A stretch of 64,000 bases of DNA from Stygiolobus caldivivus (GTDB lineage Archaea; Thermoproteota; Thermoprotei_A; Sulfolobales; Sulfolobaceae), in contig NZ_AP024597.1 in assembly GCF_019704315.1 (NCBI RefSeq), positions 1,116,001-1,180,000 of the forward strand, in the 5' to 3' direction. Below are positions 4,757-62,180 of this stretch, in pieces. The notes under the pieces were generated by a model. The model was not told the origin of the DNA. It did not search any database and saw only the letters and a program-made list of their open reading frames with translations. Position numbers and translations under genes: made by a program. Positions within the stretch are counted from its first letter, which is position 1. The number at the start of each line of letters is the position of its first letter.

Positions 4757-4846
4757 AAACTTGTCAGTAAAGTGACAAGTTTGACATAAGAGTTGTTAAA
4801 TAAATGACAAAATTTAAATAAAACTTGTCAATAAAATGACAAGTGT
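4757..4846 (+). promoter_or_regulatory. TATA box bracketed by two 26-base palindromes
   Basis: Palindrome 1 (4757-4782) has arms AAACTTGTCA and TGACAAGTTT around 6 bases. Palindrome 2 (4821-4846) repeats the same arms with one mismatch at the last positions. A TATA-like AATTTAAATAAA (about 4811-4822) lies between them, and an extra half-site TGACAA sits at 4805-4810. Centres are 64 bases apart. Palindrome 2 covers the expected transcription start and the GTG start of the downstream ATPase gene, the usual place for an archaeal repressor operator. Confidence 0.75.
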
Positions 4847-6144
4847 CACTCATATCACAAATGAGTTTCCAAAACCCGTGGTGGGCGGACAAGGGAAAGA
4901 TATATGACGACGGTCACGTAAGAAAAGTACTTTCATCAAACCCCCGTTTTTTAGTCCCGCCTATCGGGGAGAGTTCGTTAATCTTAGGCCCTAGACAAGT
5001 AGGAAAGACCACATACCTCAAGGTCACTATAATGAACCTACTGGAGCGGGGAGTTGAGCCCACGAAAGTTTTCTTCTTTTCATGTGACGCGTTAAAGACA
5101 AAGGAAGACTTAGTCTCCCTCTTATCACAGTACCGTTCGTTAATAAACAGTGAAGGTGGGTTTATATTTCTTGACGAAGTGACATTCGTGGAGGACTGGA
5201 ACGTAGGCTTACTCCACTTATTTAACGCGGGGTACTTCAGGGACACTGTAGTTTATGTAAGCGGTTCGGCCTCGGTATCGCTGAAGAAAGAGACATTACC
5301 GGGCAGGCCTATAAGGAAGTTAGTATATTACCCCCTGAACTTCCGCGTGTTCTTCAACACGTTCTATAAGAGACTGAACGCCCCTACACTGTCCCCCTCA
5401 GACGTAAAGGGGTTCTTTAACGCCTCTGCCAAGTTAGCCCCCTACTTATCCGAGCTGAATAGGGGGCTCCTCGATTACGTAAAGAGAGGGGGTTTCTTAG
5501 CTACGGCTTATACGGACGGTGACCCGTTAAACAGCTTATACGAGGTATACAAGGACGCAGTGCTTAGCGACATGGCGAAGTTGGGCAAGAACGAGAGGGC
5601 CTTCAGGGAGGTGGTGGAAAAAGTCATAGACTTTTACGGTAGTAGGGTGTCTGAGAACACTATAGCAAAAGAGACCGGAATAGGGTCACATAACACGGTA
5701 GCCTCCTATCTGTCCTTAGCAGAGGACTTATTCGTCCTCAGGGCCTTTTACAAAGTAGAGGATAAGGGGGTCAATTACCGCTCATTCAAGAAGGTGTACT
5801 TCACCGACCCGTTCATATACCGCGTTATGAAAAGGTATACTAAAGGTGAGGGGGGAATCGAAGAGGGCGAAGTGCCTAGGGTGATCGAAGGGGTTGTAGG
5901 CGAACACTTGGCTAGGGAACTTAGCAGTGTTGGGTACACTTTCTTTAAAGGGGGTAAGGAGGTAGACTTCGTCATCGGGGACATAGGGGTAGAAGTTAAG
6001 TGGGGCAGAGGAGACGTGAGAGACCTGAGGACTAGTAAGGGGTACGTCCTATCCCTAGACGATTTCAGGATAGAAGGCGGAAAAGCTGTGGTCCCGGTGT
6101 CGGTCTTCCTCTACCTCATATCGTCAGAGAAGGTGTTCTATTAG
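4843..6144 (+). CDS. Archaeal P-loop ATPase with DUF4143-type C-terminal domain
   Basis: Belongs to the large archaeal/bacterial ATPase family that joins an AAA-type ATPase, a winged-helix part and a DUF4143-type, nuclease-like domain. Visible motifs are NPWW at 11-14, Walker A GPRQVGKT (49-56, K55), Walker B FIFLDEV (about 107-113), and near the C-terminus EVDF...VEVK, the E-x-K pattern of PD-(D/E)XK folds. The GTG at 4843 sits about 27 bases after the TATA-like box and would be leaderless; an ATG at 4861 (MSFQNPWW) is the alternative if palindrome 2 is purely operator. A second family member at 57758 has the same promoter layout with a different palindrome. The cellular role of this family is not established. 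Confidence 0.8.
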   Translation: MSLISQMSFQNPWWADKGKIYDDGHVRKVLSSNPRFLVPPIGESSLILGPRQVGKTTYLKVTIMNLLERGVEPTKVFFFSCDALKTKEDLVSLLSQYRSLINSEGGFIFLDEVTFVEDWNVGLLHLFNAGYFRDTVVYVSGSASVSLKKETLPGRPIRKLVYYPLNFRVFFNTFYKRLNAPTLSPSDVKGFFNASAKLAPYLSELNRGLLDYVKRGGFLATAYTDGDPLNSLYEVYKDAVLSDMAKLGKNERAFREVVEKVIDFYGSRVSENTIAKETGIGSHNTVASYLSLAEDLFVLRAFYKVEDKGVNYRSFKKVYFTDPFIYRVMKRYTKGEGGIEEGEVPRVIEGVVGEHLARELSSVGYTFFKGGKEVDFVIGDIGVEVKWGRGDVRDLRTSKGYVLSLDDFRIEGGKAVVPVSVFLYLISSEKVFY

Positions 6145-6484: not shown

Positions 6485-7000
6485 GTGTTAGGTTTAATAA
6501 CCTCGTTTTTCAGTAATGTAGTTGTGGAAGAGATAATAAAGAGGGCTAAGGAAAAGGGTATTGATATAGAGGACGTCCTCCTGAGAGAGATAGCTAAGAA
6601 CGACCCTCAAGAAGGGGTTAAATTGAGGTTGGAAATCGCGGAAAGTTACATGAACGAAGCTTACGATTATTTGAAGAAGGGTGACCCAGTTCAAGCTTCT
6701 GAAAAGGCTTACAAGGTCGCTGAAGAGGTAGTTAGAGCGTTAGCTGAAAAGTTTAAAACAGACGAATACAGGCAAGCGTCGGCTGAAGGTAGGTGGTACA
6801 CATACTTACTAGCCAGTGCGACTAACGAGTTGTCAAAGAGGTTCGGTGATTGGGTCGCAGAAGGTTGGAACGCGGGGTACGTATTACACGTATGGGGTTT
6901 CCATGAGGGTAAACTGAGCGTGGACAAGATCACAGTAAACATGGAAAAAGTAAAGAAAATGTTGGAAAAAGCGAAGAGTGTGCTATACCAAGGCCTATAA
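6485..7000 (+). CDS. PaREP1-family protein
   Basis: Matches the archaeal PaREP1 family, alpha-helical proteins related to HEPN domains, often in many copies and of unknown role. The core GDPVQASEKAYKVAEE (about residues 67-82) and the distal WGFHEG are nearly identical to the paralog at 61710-62180. The first possible start is GTG at 6485. The paralog begins with MEELIRRAEE, which aligns with VEEIIKRAKE here, so the GTG at 6524 may be the true start, giving about 158 residues. It stands alone, with an ATPase gene upstream and transposon remains downstream. Confidence 0.75.
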   Translation: MLGLITSFFSNVVVEEIIKRAKEKGIDIEDVLLREIAKNDPQEGVKLRLEIAESYMNEAYDYLKKGDPVQASEKAYKVAEEVVRALAEKFKTDEYRQASAEGRWYTYLLASATNELSKRFGDWVAEGWNAGYVLHVWGFHEGKLSVDKITVNMEKVKKMLEKAKSVLYQGL

Positions 7001-52826: not shown

Positions 52827-54692
52827 ATGGATAGTGTGGGTAAAGGTATTTATATTCTGAACCTCTCCTTCACCGGGCTAATATATATTTTGTCCATGAG
52901 ACTTTCCGCCTCCCAACTTGTCCTCTCATCACTCTACCTCTTCAGCACGGTCGTGTTTACAGTACTCTACCTCAAGCAGAGCAGGGCTTCATCCTTCGTC
53001 CCGTTAATCACGTTTTTGTACTACCCCTTTTATGAATACTTTTATAGCGGACACGCCTCTACATCCATAATAATCCGTGAAATAGTGCTTTCCTTATTGG
53101 GGCTCATACCCTCCGTTTTAATCATTTATAGGGGCAGAGGAAAAGAAGTCGCTAACGTAATAGGCATCCTCCTAGTATCATTGTACCTCCCCTTTAGTAT
53201 ATTCCTTTGGTTATCGGCCCCGGCTTCCTTCCGACAGACCGTCGGGTCGTTGCTCCTAAACCCTTTATTTATACCCGCGAGTTTCTCGACCCTGAGGTCC
53301 CTAGGCTACGGCATACCGAGGAGCCAAAAATCTACACCTCAACACTACGCCGCCCAACCGCAATACACACCACAGCTCAGTTACCCCCAAGTACAGCAGT
53401 ACCCGAGCTACACGCAAATGCCCTACCAGCCCTCAAACACCGGCTCGCTTTCCGTAACTTTCATCTTTAGGGGCTTACCGGCCGGGTGTTACCCCGTAAT
53501 CCACGTAAACGGTAAGAGGTACCAGCCTAAAAAGTACTTCCAAGGAGATTACGTGTTCTACTTCCACGAGGGCTGTACTTGGAACGCTGGGGCAGTGACG
53601 TGTGGGGCGACCACGTATTTACCTGACAGACAGAGGGGTAAAGCCGATTTAGGTAGCTCCGTGATAATAACCTACAGACCTGCACCTCAAGGACACGGCC
53701 CTAGCCAGACCATACCTCAGTCCCCCTCAAGGCCCCTGACAAACAAGGGCCTGGGCAACTGGGACCCGAACGTGTGGGTGGGCCGCACTCTCTCAGTTTA
53801 TAACGTAAAGAAAGTCATAGGGGAGGGAGGTAACGGTTACGTCCTTAAGGCTAACTACTCAGGGAAGCAGTTGGCCATAAAAGTCCTTAAACTCTACGGC
53901 GGTAACCCCGAGGCCTTCTTCAAGGAACTGGCCACTGAGGCGTCTAACCTCGTAAACTTGTCCAACCACAAAAACATCGTGAAAGTCTACGCTGTAAAAG
54001 TCGACACTTTTGTCATTAACGAGGTATTAAGGGGGAGGGCTGACTTATACCTAAAGGACCCGCCGATGATAGTCATGGAGTTCATGAGCGGGGGTACGTT
54101 AAAGGACTTATTAGACGACGACATGTTCTACTATAGCTCCAAGTGGCAGAAGAGCGTGTTAAAGGCCGTGTGTGAAGTCGCACAAGCGCTGGACTACGTC
54201 CACTCCCAAGGTTTTGTACACATGGACGTGAAGCCGCAAAACATTTTCCTTAACGAAAAGCCCAAAGACCCTTCAGGTCTCGACAACGTCGAGTTTAAAC
54301 TTGGCGACCTCGGTAGTGCGGTGAGGGTGAACGGTGATGTAAAACAAGTGACCGTTGAATATTCCCCTCCTGAGGTCTACGTAGAGAAGGCCAAGCCCTA
54401 TTTCGATATCTATGCACTGGGTATGACTATGTACACCTTATTGACGAGGAAAATAGACAGGCCTGACTTGAACGAGATGGAGAGCGCCTTTAACTGTTAC
54501 GTAAAAAATGACATTGTCTGTGTAAAAGACGAGGTGATTATGGCTAAGGCGAAGCTGTCTCGCTGGGACGTGAGCGTAGACCCGCAAGTAGACAACTTGC
54601 TTAAGCTGATGCTCTCAGACGACCCGAGGAGGAGGCCTACAGCTAAAGAGGTAATCGACGCGATAAAAAGGGTAGACCCTACGTTATGTTAG
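52827..54692 (+). CDS. Membrane-anchored Ser/Thr protein kinase (paralog 2)
   Basis: 621 residues. Several membrane segments (about 8-170), a Gln/Pro/Tyr-rich linker (about 175-210), a small beta domain with three cysteines (GLPAGCYPVIHVNGKRY, then GCTWNAGAVTCGATTYLP) like that of the first kinase, then the kinase domain (about 310-621). The catalytic loop HMDVKPQN is at H465-N472, GEGGNG glycine loop near 332-337, DLG in place of DFG. C-x7-C in the C-lobe (NCYVKNDIVC) and a final Cys. Expected to signal from the membrane inward. Some uncertainty remains in the start because the best TATA box is too close. Confidence 0.9.
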   Translation: MDSVGKGIYILNLSFTGLIYILSMRLSASQLVLSSLYLFSTVVFTVLYLKQSRASSFVPLITFLYYPFYEYFYSGHASTSIIIREIVLSLLGLIPSVLIIYRGRGKEVANVIGILLVSLYLPFSIFLWLSAPASFRQTVGSLLLNPLFIPASFSTLRSLGYGIPRSQKSTPQHYAAQPQYTPQLSYPQVQQYPSYTQMPYQPSNTGSLSVTFIFRGLPAGCYPVIHVNGKRYQPKKYFQGDYVFYFHEGCTWNAGAVTCGATTYLPDRQRGKADLGSSVIITYRPAPQGHGPSQTIPQSPSRPLTNKGLGNWDPNVWVGRTLSVYNVKKVIGEGGNGYVLKANYSGKQLAIKVLKLYGGNPEAFFKELATEASNLVNLSNHKNIVKVYAVKVDTFVINEVLRGRADLYLKDPPMIVMEFMSGGTLKDLLDDDMFYYSSKWQKSVLKAVCEVAQALDYVHSQGFVHMDVKPQNIFLNEKPKDPSGLDNVEFKLGDLGSAVRVNGDVKQVTVEYSPPEVYVEKAKPYFDIYALGMTMYTLLTRKIDRPDLNEMESAFNCYVKNDIVCVKDEVIMAKAKLSRWDVSVDPQVDNLLKLMLSDDPRRRPTAKEVIDAIKRVDPTLC

Positions 54693-55387: not shown

Positions 55388-57217
55388 ATGGCGTCTATAA
55401 AGCCTTTCATTATCCAAGGGGTCCAGCTTTTCCGTTACGGTAACTACGAAAAGGCCCACGAACAGTTCCGCAACGCCACAGCCCTCTACCAGCAGAGCGA
55501 TGAGGCAAATTCCCCCGAAGGGGTTTACGTATACATCGACGCGATGAGGTGGAAGGGGGTCACAGAGGTCAAGCTGGGTAGGTACGACGAGGCCATAAGG
55601 ACTTTGAAGCAAGTCCTCGACAATACAAACGAGAAGCCCCCTGAGGTAGTCTATTACCTCTCCCTAGCAAGGTATTACTACTCATTCTTCCTAGACTATA
55701 AGACCTCGACACTTATGGCGGCATTAGAGGGACTTAAAAATATTAGGCCTATGGTAGACATGGCAAAAGTAACGGCCCTCAAGGCGTTAATACACACCGA
55801 GCTATGGGAGCTAAACGAAGCTGAGAGGCTGGTGGGCACAATCGGTCACGCAAACCCCTTGTCCCGCCTAGTCTGGGCCCACATATTCAGGTTCAGGAAC
55901 ATGTTTGACCAAGCACTGACAGATATAGACCCAATCGTACAGGCTGAGCCTTATAACGTGGACGCGCTGATCGAGAAAGGGCTTATATTGAAGGGGAAGG
56001 GGCTATACGGCGACGCGCTGCTCACGTTAGAAAGCGCGGTCAAGGTGGACAGATACAATACCTTGGCCATGCTGTTCATAGCAGAGGTCTTAGAGCTCCA
56101 GAAGAGGAGGAAAGACGCTATTATCGTCTATACTGCCATAGACAAAGTGGTCTATAGCCCCCTCGTGAAAACAAAGCTCTCGGGACTAATAATACCTCAG
56201 GTGAACTTACAGCCCCAATACGGCCAACTACCCCAAAGACAAGTCCAGAAGGCCCCCTCAAGGACCTTAGGCAAACTTAAACTCACTTCTTGGGACCCTA
56301 AAATATGGGTAGGGAGTACGTTCTCTGTGTATAAGGTGACCGACCTATTAGGGGAAGGGGGTAACGGGTACGTATTAAAGGGGGTAGGCCCAAACGGGGA
56401 AGAAGTGGCGATTAAGGTCCTGAAGGTACAGAGCGGAGTGGCTGACGACTACTTCGACACTTTGGTAGCTGAGGCGAATAACCTCACCTCGGTGTCCAAC
56501 GACCCGGACTTCGTTAAGATCTACGCTATCTACGTGGACAGACTGGTCTTGAACGGTATCCTCAGCGGTAACCTGGCATTATATACGATGAGCCCGCCCA
56601 TGATAGTGATGGAGCTCATGAAAGGGGGGACCCTCCATGACCTGCTCGAGGACGACGCCTTCTTTTACTCCTCAAGGTGGGTAAAGACGGTATATAGGGC
56701 TGTAGCTACTGTAGCCCGGGCACTTGCCCACATGCACTCAGCGGGCTACGTACACATGGACGTAAAACCCCACAACATATTTTTGACGAATAAGCCTAAG
56801 CACCCCGACCAGTTACCTACCGTCGACTTTAAGCTGGGCGACCTCGGTAGTGCGGTGAGGGTCGGGGGGAAGGTAACACAGCTTACTGTAGAGTACGCGC
56901 CCCCAGAAGTGTACTTAGGTACTGCCAAGCCCTATTTGGACGTCTTCGCTTTGGGCATGACCACCTATGTCCTCCTGACGAGGAAGATGGACAGGCCTGA
57001 CGTGCAGGAGATGAACGACGCGTTCGACTGTTACCTGAAAAACGATGCTTACTGTGTTAAAGATAAGGTAAGGCTCGCCCAAGAGAAGCTAAGGCAGTGG
57101 GACGTCAACGTCCCGGCAGAAGTAAAGCCTATCGTTAAGTCTATGCTGGACCCCGACCCCATAACGAGGCCTACTGCTAAAGAGGTTAGTGACGTCATGA
57201 CGAAGTTGGTAGCGTGA
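55388..57217 (+). CDS. Soluble Ser/Thr protein kinase with TPR-like repeats (paralog 3)
   Basis: 609 residues. The first ~270 residues are helical repeats of the tetratricopeptide type (FRYGNYEKAHEQFRNATALY, LGRYDEAIRTLKQVLDNTNE, LKGKGLYGDALLTLESAVKV). The kinase domain follows (about 305-609): GEGGNG glycine loop, catalytic loop HMDVKPHN at H456-N463, DLG for DFG, and the C-x7-C pair (DCYLKNDAYC). No membrane segment, unlike the two sisters. TATA-like TAATTTAATAG (about 55351-55361) is ~32 bases upstream. The TPR part suggests a protein-binding regulator or scaffold. Confidence 0.9.
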   Translation: MASIKPFIIQGVQLFRYGNYEKAHEQFRNATALYQQSDEANSPEGVYVYIDAMRWKGVTEVKLGRYDEAIRTLKQVLDNTNEKPPEVVYYLSLARYYYSFFLDYKTSTLMAALEGLKNIRPMVDMAKVTALKALIHTELWELNEAERLVGTIGHANPLSRLVWAHIFRFRNMFDQALTDIDPIVQAEPYNVDALIEKGLILKGKGLYGDALLTLESAVKVDRYNTLAMLFIAEVLELQKRRKDAIIVYTAIDKVVYSPLVKTKLSGLIIPQVNLQPQYGQLPQRQVQKAPSRTLGKLKLTSWDPKIWVGSTFSVYKVTDLLGEGGNGYVLKGVGPNGEEVAIKVLKVQSGVADDYFDTLVAEANNLTSVSNDPDFVKIYAIYVDRLVLNGILSGNLALYTMSPPMIVMELMKGGTLHDLLEDDAFFYSSRWVKTVYRAVATVARALAHMHSAGYVHMDVKPHNIFLTNKPKHPDQLPTVDFKLGDLGSAVRVGGKVTQLTVEYAPPEVYLGTAKPYLDVFALGMTTYVLLTRKMDRPDVQEMNDAFDCYLKNDAYCVKDKVRLAQEKLRQWDVNVPAEVKPIVKSMLDPDPITRPTAKEVSDVMTKLVA

Positions 57218-57684
57218 CGGGGTAAGGACTAGCTTCACGTCACAGCCTATTCAAGGCGTTTAGCCCGTAGTACTTCATAATATTCCATGTTAGTCCTCAC
57301 CCCTCTAGCTTCATTAAAGTCCCGTGGCTCTCCCCACTCTCTCCCCTAACGGGACGACCTTGGCTAACACTCGACCACAGGCGTTACGTTACGGTGAACT
57401 TAGAGGAATATATTCAGCGGTTTATCCACCCGTCTGAGGTGACAGAACCCCTCATGCTTGAAAGTCCTTTGAACTCGGGGGACGTGTGCTCACCCGGGGT
57501 AGGACTTAGACGTAAGGTGTGGGTCTCACCTATTTCACGAAAGGGTAGTAAGGGTAGCCTTATATTTTAACACACGGTTTATAGCCTCCCAAACCGTAAA
57601 GGGTCAGGAATGGTGTCACTAGCGTCGTCAAAGGGGCCACTCTTACTGTCCCCGGTCATCAGGCCTCTAAAGGCGGGACGTCAT
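57218..57684. other. Intergenic stretch, nothing recognised
   Basis: About 470 bases between the kinase and the second ATPase promoter; no gene seen. Confidence 0.4.
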
Positions 57685-57771
57685 AATTTGAGGTTTTTAT
57701 AGAAGAATTACCTCAAATTAGTTTAGGAGTATACTCCAAGATTTTATTATTCAGCTTATGGAGTATACTCC
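57685..57771 (+). promoter_or_regulatory. TATA box bracketed by two palindromes, with a third inverted repeat
   Basis: GGAGTATACTCC occurs at 57726-57737 and again at 57760-57771; both are perfect 12-base palindromes, centres 34 bases apart. TATA-like TTTTATTATTC (about 57742-57752) lies between them. Further up, AATTTGAGGT (57685-57694) pairs with ACCTCAAATT (57710-57719). The second palindrome overlaps the ATG at 57758 and ends just ahead of the ATG at 57773. Confidence 0.75.
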
Positions 57772-57772
57772 A

Positions 57773-58999
57773 ATGAATGTGGAAGAGGTCAAATCGGTGT
57801 TAAAAGAGCTGAGGGAAGAGGCGACCGAGCTCATCTCGAACGAGAGGATAATACTGAGGGAGGTCCCAGACCTCCTGTCCTTTCTGTCAATACCCAACGT
57901 GTTAGCAATACTGGGGGTGAGGAGGTCGGGTAAGTCTACCCTCTCCCTCTTATTACTCAGGGGGAAGGACTTCGCATACGTAAATTTCGACGACGAGAGG
58001 CTCAGGGGGCTCAAAGACCTCAGTAGGCTCGAGGAGGCGATATATTCCCTCTACGGAAACATAAACTACCTCTTATTCGACGAGGTACAGAACGTTAAGG
58101 GCTGGGAGCCTTTTGTGAGTAGGCTCAGGAGGGGAGGTAAGAGGGTGATAATAACCGGGAGTAACTCCAAGTTACTTTCCGGTGAGCTCGCCACATCACT
58201 TACGGGCAGACACGTGGACTATTTCCTGTTCCCCTTTTCGTTTAAGGAGTACCTCAGGTTTAACGGGGTAGTAACCGGAGACGTAATGACGACCAGGGAA
58301 AGGGCGTTAGTTAAGGGCTACTTAGAGAAGTACTTGGAGTTAGGGGGCTTCCCGGAAGCACTGATGTTGGGGAGCAGGGTAATGTTAAACAGCATCTATA
58401 ACGACATATTGTTTAGGGACGTCGTGTCCAGGCTCAAGGTAAAGAGGGTAGAGAGGTTTAAGGACTTTGCTTCGGCTGTCGTATCTCTGTACTCGTCAGA
58501 GGTGTCTATAAACAGGCTGGCTAAGATCATTAAAGTAGACTATAAGACTGCGGACGAGTGGTTTTCGGGTATCGTAGAGAGCTATTTAGTCCATATTGTA
58601 AAGAGGTATTCGGCGAAGGTAAGCTCTTTAGGTGAAAACAAGAAAGTATACGTCACAGACCCGGGGATCATCCACGAGGTAGTGGTAAAGAAGGACAAGG
58701 GGAGGATAATAGAGGACTTAGTCGCCGTCCACCTACTTAGGAAGAACCAATTTAAGGGAATATACTACGTAAAGGGGGAGGACTACGAAGTGGACTTTTA
58801 CGATGAGGTAAACGGCGAGTTAATACAAGTCACTTTCGATGACGAAATAAGGGACAGGAAAATCAGGGGGTTGGTAAAGGCTTCATCACTGCTCGGGATC
58901 GGGAGGCTGAAGGTCGTCACGTGGGACAGCGAGGGGGAGGTCAAAGTTGAAGGGAAAAAGGTGGAAATTGAGCCCCTCTGGAAGTTCTTACTACGGTAG
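57773..58999 (+). CDS. P-loop ATPase with DUF4143 domain (AAA_14 type)
   Basis: About 408 residues from the ATG at 57773. The ATG at 57758 lies inside a palindrome; the ATG at 57773 is ~26 bases after the TATA-like box and is preferred. Walker A GVRRSGKS (K54), Walker B YLLFDEVQNVKGWE, sensor-like IITGSNSKLLSGELATSLTG with R after it, the winged-helix region (EVSINRLAKIIKVDYKTADE), and the C-terminal DUF4143 nuclease-like end GEDYEVDFYDEVNGELIQV, where the usual E-x-K reads E-L-I-Q. Role unknown for the family; relative of the gene at 4843. Confidence 0.85.
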   Translation: MNVEEVKSVLKELREEATELISNERIILREVPDLLSFLSIPNVLAILGVRRSGKSTLSLLLLRGKDFAYVNFDDERLRGLKDLSRLEEAIYSLYGNINYLLFDEVQNVKGWEPFVSRLRRGGKRVIITGSNSKLLSGELATSLTGRHVDYFLFPFSFKEYLRFNGVVTGDVMTTRERALVKGYLEKYLELGGFPEALMLGSRVMLNSIYNDILFRDVVSRLKVKRVERFKDFASAVVSLYSSEVSINRLAKIIKVDYKTADEWFSGIVESYLVHIVKRYSAKVSSLGENKKVYVTDPGIIHEVVVKKDKGRIIEDLVAVHLLRKNQFKGIYYVKGEDYEVDFYDEVNGELIQVTFDDEIRDRKIRGLVKASSLLGIGRLKVVTWDSEGEVKVEGKKVEIEPLWKFLLR

Positions 59000-61709: not shown

Positions 61710-62180
61710 CTAGGTGTTGAGGGCCTTTTCAGCCTCCTCCAGCATTTTCCTCACCCTCTCTACCCGGCTTCGTATGTCGTTGATAGTCCACTTAGCCTCA
61801 TGGAACCCCCAGACGTGGAGGGCATAAGCCGAGTCCCAACCGGCCATGACCCAGTCCCCTACTACCTGGGAAAGCTTGGCCGCGGCAGAGCCCAACGAGT
61901 AGACGTACCACCTGCCTTCTTTTAACGCCTTTTGGTACTCTTCAAGGTTAAATTTCTCTGCTAAAGCTTTGACCAGTTCTTCAGCCACTTTGTAAGCTTT
62001 TTCTGATGCTTGTACCGGGTCACCTCCTTTTAAATACTTGTCACATTCAGCCATATACTTCCTAGCTACCTCAAGCCTTAGCCTGACCTCTTCTTTTGGA
62101 TCATTTTTGCTTATAAGGCCTATCAGTACATCTTCCACGTTTATCCCCATCTCTTCAGCCCTTCTTATTAGCTCTTCCAT
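61710..62180 (-). CDS. PaREP1-family protein, second copy
   Basis: 156 residues. MEELIRRAEEMGINVEDVLI at the start; GDPVQASEKAYKVAEELVKA in the core and HVWGFHEAKW near the end are almost those of the protein at 6485-7000. Helical, HEPN-related, role unknown. TATA-like AACTTTTATT (about 62205-62214, complementary strand) about 28 bases ahead of the ATG. Confidence 0.75.
   Translation of the reverse strand: MEELIRRAEEMGINVEDVLIGLISKNDPKEEVRLRLEVARKYMAECDKYLKGGDPVQASEKAYKVAEELVKALAEKFNLEEYQKALKEGRWYVYSLGSAAAKLSQVVGDWVMAGWDSAYALHVWGFHEAKWTINDIRSRVERVRKMLEEAEKALNT

Follow-up and report, generated by a model that had tools for sequence, protein, structure and literature searches.

The window that we analysed, a stretch of 64,000 nucleotides, holds two ATPase genes of one family, one beginning at 4843 and the other, from its proposed start, at 57773 (Table 1). 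The two proteins share 27% identity over 339 aligned positions, in line with the kinship proposed for them in the initial annotation, and in both of them the AAA_14 (PF13173) and DUF4143 (PF13635) domains score above the curated Pfam cut-offs. In the 57773 protein these domains reach 1.6e-33 (115.9 bits) and 6.3e-15 (55.7 bits), respectively, and both proteins match the PADLOC HMM for the candidate defence system PDC-S01, the 57773 protein at 4.5e-91. No NCBIfam model scored above its cut-off, PHROGs gave no match, and no PDB relative was found by sequence. The AlphaFold2 model of the 57773 protein (pLDDT 92.9, 99 sequences) has the STAND core fold (NBD-helical-winged-helix), with similarity to SSO1545 and PABY2304 at Z ~16 and to NLR and CED-4 at Z 14–15. 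The C-terminal PD-(D/E)XK-like motif of this protein retains E314 and D341 and lacks the catalytic lysine, and most of its aligned relatives have Q-V-T/C/S/A at the same place. Because Q-V-T stands where (D/E)-x-K would be expected, nuclease activity in the 57773 clade appears doubtful. By sequence, the 4843 paralog has V-E-V-K-W at this motif.

Other features of the surroundings can be noted. Two successive protein-kinase genes (52827–54692 and 55388–57217, one with TPR repeats) lie directly 5' of the 57773 gene, and PaREP1 family genes are found a few hundred bases past the 4843 gene (6485–7000) and ~2.7 kb past the 57773 gene (61710–62180). A search of the whole window against Rfam gave no match to an RNA element.

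Table 1 Features of the two ATPase loci and sites of the further paralogs. Positions refer to the window unless marked as genome positions.
Feature	Position	Strand	Basis or remark
Operator copy 1 of the 4843 paralog, TTGTCAGTAAAGTGACAA	4761–4778	.	18-bp unit
Operator copy 2 of the 4843 paralog, TTGTTAAATAAATGACAA	4793–4810	.	18-bp unit, degenerate
TATA-like ATTTAAAT of the 4843 promoter	4812–4819	+	sequence; between copies 2 and 3
Operator copy 3 of the 4843 paralog, TTGTCAATAAAATGACAA	4825–4842	.	18-bp unit
AAA_14/DUF4143 ATPase gene, paralog	4843–6144	+	Pfam 70.9 and 43.7 bits; PDC-S01 2.4e-31
Inverted repeat TAATTTGAGGT (57684–57694) / ACCTCAAATTA (57710–57720)	57684–57720	.	11-bp arms, 15-nt loop
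Operator copy 1, palindrome GGAGTATACTCC	57726–57737	.	repeat and genome-wide match count; ortholog counterpart GGAGTACACTCC
TATA-like box TTTATTAT	57743–57750	+	sequence, distance to ATG; between both GGAGTATACTCC copies
Operator copy 2, palindrome GGAGTATACTCC	57760–57771	.	ends 1 nt before ATG 57773
AAA_14 + winged helix + DUF4143 ATPase gene	57773–58999	+	408 aa from proposed leaderless start; Pfam, PADLOC
Helix-turn-helix, residues 246–269	58508–58579	+	AlphaFold2 model, pLDDT 92.9
Recognition helix, residues 257–269	58541–58579	+	AlphaFold2 model; covariation windows starting 255–257 rank first
PD-(D/E)XK-like motif E314, D341, Q352-V-T	58712–58834	+	catalytic K position not K
Further paralog, site TTCACTATACTGCA	genome 1343316		spacing 34 bp
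Further paralog, site CTGTCAA-TTTGACAG	genome 8815		spacing 33
Further paralog, site TGACTCATTTATGAGTCA	genome 1110993		spacing 33
Further paralog, site TGGTC-GACCA	genome 2503274		spacing 32; second copy degenerate
Further paralog with one stop codon, site TTTGTCACATATGACAAA	genome 2376763		spacing 33

The promoter of the 57773 gene carries the palindrome GGAGTATACTCC twice, 34 bp apart from start to start and on either side of a TATA-like box, just as had been described for it; the unit common to both copies is GGAGTATACTCCAA. In the 2.96-Mb genome the 12-mer has only these two exact occurrences, and allowing one mismatch adds seven scattered places, compared to five for a reversed control. 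The mechanically called reading frame starts at ATG 57758 and overlaps operator copy 2. Because the in-frame ATG at 57773 lies 26 nt from the centre of the TATA-like box, which is also the commonest such distance over 75 relatives, the transcript is likely leaderless and begins at 57773. In the nearest ortholog (L034, 81% identical) GGAGTACACTCC corresponds to copy 1. The initial annotation had also pointed to a 10-base inverted repeat just upstream. This repeat is present, with slightly longer arms, but it is absent upstream of L034; for this reason we dropped it, and it probably lies outside the operator system. The 4843 promoter has three 18-bp units of the form TTGTCAnTAAAnTGACAA with a period of 32 bp, two of them perfect and the middle one degenerate, and this site type was found in the genome at its own gene only.

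In all, the genome contains seven paralogs, of which six are intact and one is interrupted by a stop codon. Every one has a repeated promoter site, and the sequences of these sites differ. When three of the five further operator types were searched genome-wide, they too were found at their own gene, bar one site with one mismatch to the TTCACTATACTGCA type. All five types checked in this way are thus essentially private, lying at their own promoter and nowhere else apart from near-matches at one mismatch. Among degraded gene copies, a single site is left at three loci (L190, L149 and L191) and two sites remain in the others. Pseudogene L190, which lies in the same genome (G000:C1:152750-154727), retains one GTTTTAGTATAGTAAAAC palindrome.

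Short palindromes are frequent in AT-rich DNA, and it could be argued that such pairs arise by chance or from low-complexity AT-rich promoter sequence. However, a 16-mer repeat (13/16 matches) spaced by 31–34 bp occurs in 67 of the 105 Sulfolobaceae family upstreams, and any other distance bin of the same width of four holds only 0–3, while the same repeat was seen in 8/1480 and 25/1421 control pieces and in none of 27 promoters of the related ATPase family PF01637. A pair score combining repeat identity with palindromicity reached at least 27 in 38/104 family upstreams and in 0/298 upstreams of non-family genes in those genomes, and at a score of at least 26 there were 50 family cases, 48 of which were spaced by 31–34 bp. 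Spacing is furthermore constant within subfamilies: nearly all GVRRxGK proteins have 34 bp, GVKRxGK proteins 33 bp, and GPRQVGK proteins 31–32 or 34 bp. The shuffled, genomic and sister-family controls exclude a chance origin, which can hardly be entertained any longer, and the argument that coincidence was unlikely, first made from two cases, is borne out. Paired sites had been expected in most members of the family and this holds in Sulfolobaceae, where 76 of 95 intact genes have them with at least 12/16 matches at 31–34 bp, besides the 67/105 at the stricter 13/16.

The layout, with repeated sites that are palindromic as a rule and lie ~33 bases apart, accompanies the gene across many phyla, and some members are plasmid-borne. 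Among homologs from other archaea and bacteria, 28/73 have the 16-mer repeat (13/16) at 31–34 bp; these members carry 2–4 copies at 32–33 bp, and in many of the bacterial ones the repeats are weakly palindromic or not palindromic at all. Repeats at 31–34 bp are absent from most of the distant members on viral contigs, where L279, L280, L289, L295, L298, L301, L302 and L303 instead have promoter repeats at 39–40 bp. Three loci (L094, L095 and L096), two from Thermoplasmatota and one from Methanosarcina, have in common the helix NTSK and, exactly or nearly, the repeat AGTATATTTTAGTAAAAT, and here gene and operator were possibly transferred jointly.

The initial annotation had left it open whether each ATPase or a regulator belonging to it reads the operator. 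We found no conserved neighbour or partner regulator gene at 109 loci, where any one neighbour was common to at most five, and the conserved partner gene that characterizes a toxin-antitoxin or restriction-modification operon is missing by the same count. Because no regulator gene is conserved nearby, the ATPase itself is the most likely reader.

We also looked for the part of the protein that varies with the site. Group A comprises 27 Sulfolobaceae proteins with one palindrome frame, whose operators have a AGTATACT-like core in common and variable flanks; a change in one copy or arm tends to be matched in the other. When 404 five-residue windows were scanned without bias and with correction for overall divergence, residues 255–259 (VDYKT) were the best predictor of operator divergence (partial r 0.37–0.45), and these residues form the start of the recognition helix in the AlphaFold2 model. 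A second Sulfolobaceae set (n = 40), with other subfamilies, other sites and a k-mer metric, ranked residues 257–261 first and 256–260 second. The signal was weak in a 25-residue partial Mantel scan and clearer with 5-residue windows. The partial correlations are modest (0.2–0.45) and the sequences are related. Outside Sulfolobaceae the recognition helix did not stand out in the unbiased scan (rank 61 or worse), and our claim is limited for that reason. Within Sulfolobaceae, the palindrome sequence does track the winged-helix sequence, as had been predicted, and most strongly at the recognition helix in both sets.

It remains conceivable that the sites of each ATPase are read by a dedicated regulator whose gene lies at another locus, such as an Lrs14- or AbrB-like protein. 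Archaea are rich in small regulators and there are no measured data on DNA binding by the ATPases. We nevertheless consider such a regulator very unlikely, given that the operator tracks the recognition helix of the ATPase itself in two sets, that the layout follows the gene over many phyla, and that none of the 109 loci points to a conserved neighbour.

In Sulfolobaceae, particular residues at the tip of the recognition helix go together with particular half-sites: D-x-K-T with GGAGT, N-K-V-T with TATAGT, S-T-x-T with TTTAGT, S-I-N-T with TATCAGT, S-N-N-T with TGCAGT/TTCACT, S-H-N-T with TTGTCA, P-L-R-T with TTGACTCA, and G-K-E-T with GGTC. These residue classes were defined after inspection of the data, except for K-T, and the K-T link alone was then tested outside group A. 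There, GGA.T was present in both copies for 9 of the 14 K-T proteins compared to 2 of 93 others, and for 3/4 compared to 1/25 when one sequence was kept per 45%-identity cluster. The link spans proteins only 29–31% identical to the 57773 protein, namely the DVKT proteins L020 and L059 (the latter with one clear site copy) and, from a viral contig, the SNKT protein L279, with TTTGGAGTGTACTCCAAA. P-V-K-T proteins, which have TTTGTCA sites, are an exception. In L052, a SINT helix goes with a TTATCAGTATACTGATAA site as in L053/L148, to which it is 62–63% identical, unlike in the closer SNNT proteins (76%).

Taken together, we think it probable that this family carries private paired operators that are read by its own STAND-type ATPase and that serve negative autoregulation. 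Because, in these thermophilic archaea, the sequence of the site follows the protein's own DNA-reading helix, self-repression through a private site is probable for each gene copy. The winged-helix domain of each STAND-type NTPase would read the site at its own promoter. Since the sites are palindromic, one palindrome would presumably be bound by a two-fold pair of subunits, and two or three sites would be bound together: a period of 31–34 bp, about three helical turns, places them on about one face of the helix and so suggests cooperative binding, both the physical binding and its cooperativity being inferences. Protein bound there would overlie the start site or border on the TATA/BRE region and so keep off TBP/TFB or RNA polymerase. 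At the 57773 gene binding should repress, given that the presumed start site lies within copy 2 and that copy 1 adjoins the TATA/BRE region. The joint change of recognition helix and operator would also insulate the paralogs of one genome from each other. A role of ATP is likewise inferred, as is the biological purpose, which could be to control the dosage of an ATPase with a predicted role in defence.

The position of the TATA box bears on the sign of this regulation. Of 75 promoters, 23 have it between the two best copies, 39 have both copies on its upstream side, and neither applies to the other 13. The proposal of a common promoter architecture with unrelated palindromes stands insofar as sites are paired and their sequences differ; bracketing of the TATA box, which we rejected as a universal rule, is only one of two layouts. 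With both copies immediately upstream of TATA/BRE (39/75 promoters), the protein might activate its own promoter instead, and because of that position activation is not excluded there. As a general account, however, positive autoregulation appears unlikely to us, as the 57773 gene and the 23 bracketed promoters have one copy downstream of TATA, over or beside the start site, where bound protein should block transcription. That the sites act by repression rather than activation is inferred from these positions.

The ATPase could also bind its sites for another purpose. They might form an iteron- or ORB-like array that serves replication, partition or DNA targeting and merely coincides with the promoter. 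The STAND/AAA+ fold with its winged helix does resemble archaeal Orc (2fna Z 15.9, 1w5t Z 11.2), the repeats are helically phased, and plasmid-borne members exist. Yet there are usually just 2–4 copies, these lie at core promoters, and a chromosome holds several paralogs, and such an array seems highly improbable. The reading that we prefer, private operators for negative autoregulation by the ATPase, bears out for Sulfolobaceae the earlier suggestion of a paralog-specific autoregulation system, computationally and without binding or expression data: sites are paired in most members and track the recognition helix.

We give only even chances to a broader proposal, in which PDC-S01 STAND ATPases in general would be self-regulated via helically phased tandem operators and a diversifying recognition-helix code, with many insulated paralogs per genome. 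Equally balanced is the code that it would use, with D/S-x-K-T reading GGA.T, S-H-N/Q-T reading TGTCA, and S-N/I-N-T reading T[GT]CA. If the STAND winged helix were the DNA reader, there could be a link between activation state and promoter occupancy. The mechanism of the family is unexplained in the literature that we searched, and a self-operator would be a direct handle on it, giving a natural ligand (the protein's own DNA site), a reporter of activity state and a prediction of specificity residues. If true, the family would represent a STAND switch with a DNA-reading winged helix, and would offer, for hot archaea, a set of naturally orthogonal repressor-operator pairs.

Among known systems, the closest is PDC-S01 itself, the PADLOC candidate single-gene defence system (AAA_14/DUF4143, COG1373) whose HMMs match both window proteins. 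Like them, it is a fusion of an ATPase and a PD-(D/E)XK-like domain; its family ranks with the most abundant of the defence genes predicted in prokaryotes, and antiviral activity awaits validation for most PDCs (PMC12988326). Among prokaryotic defence systems, PDC-S01 is predicted to come fourth in frequency. It differs in that no operator or regulation has been described for it in the literature searched, and we found no description of the regulation of DUF4143, COG1373, AAA_14 or PF13173 genes in a search that covered few subscription papers. The archaeal STAND ATPases SSO1545 (2fna) and PABY2304 (2qen) share the core of ATPase, helical and winged-helix domains over ~260 residues, whereas their sequence identity is only 16–17%; the related PF01637 family differs in having no 31–34 bp repeats. 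Orc1/Cdc6 proteins are AAA+ ATPases with a winged helix that bind origin recognition boxes near their own genes at paralog-specific sites. The ATPases described here would resemble them in these respects, the likeness to an initiator resting on fold similarity alone, and differ in that the sites form a promoter pair. Private-operator autoregulation is a known kind of mechanism; what appears undescribed is its use by a family of STAND ATPases whose helix and operator diversify together. Restriction-modification C proteins and toxin-antitoxin systems likewise use symmetrical, tandem, paralog-specific operators at their own promoters; in contrast to these, the system proposed here would be a single gene without a conserved partner, with the reader, the ATPase and a putative effector in one polypeptide.
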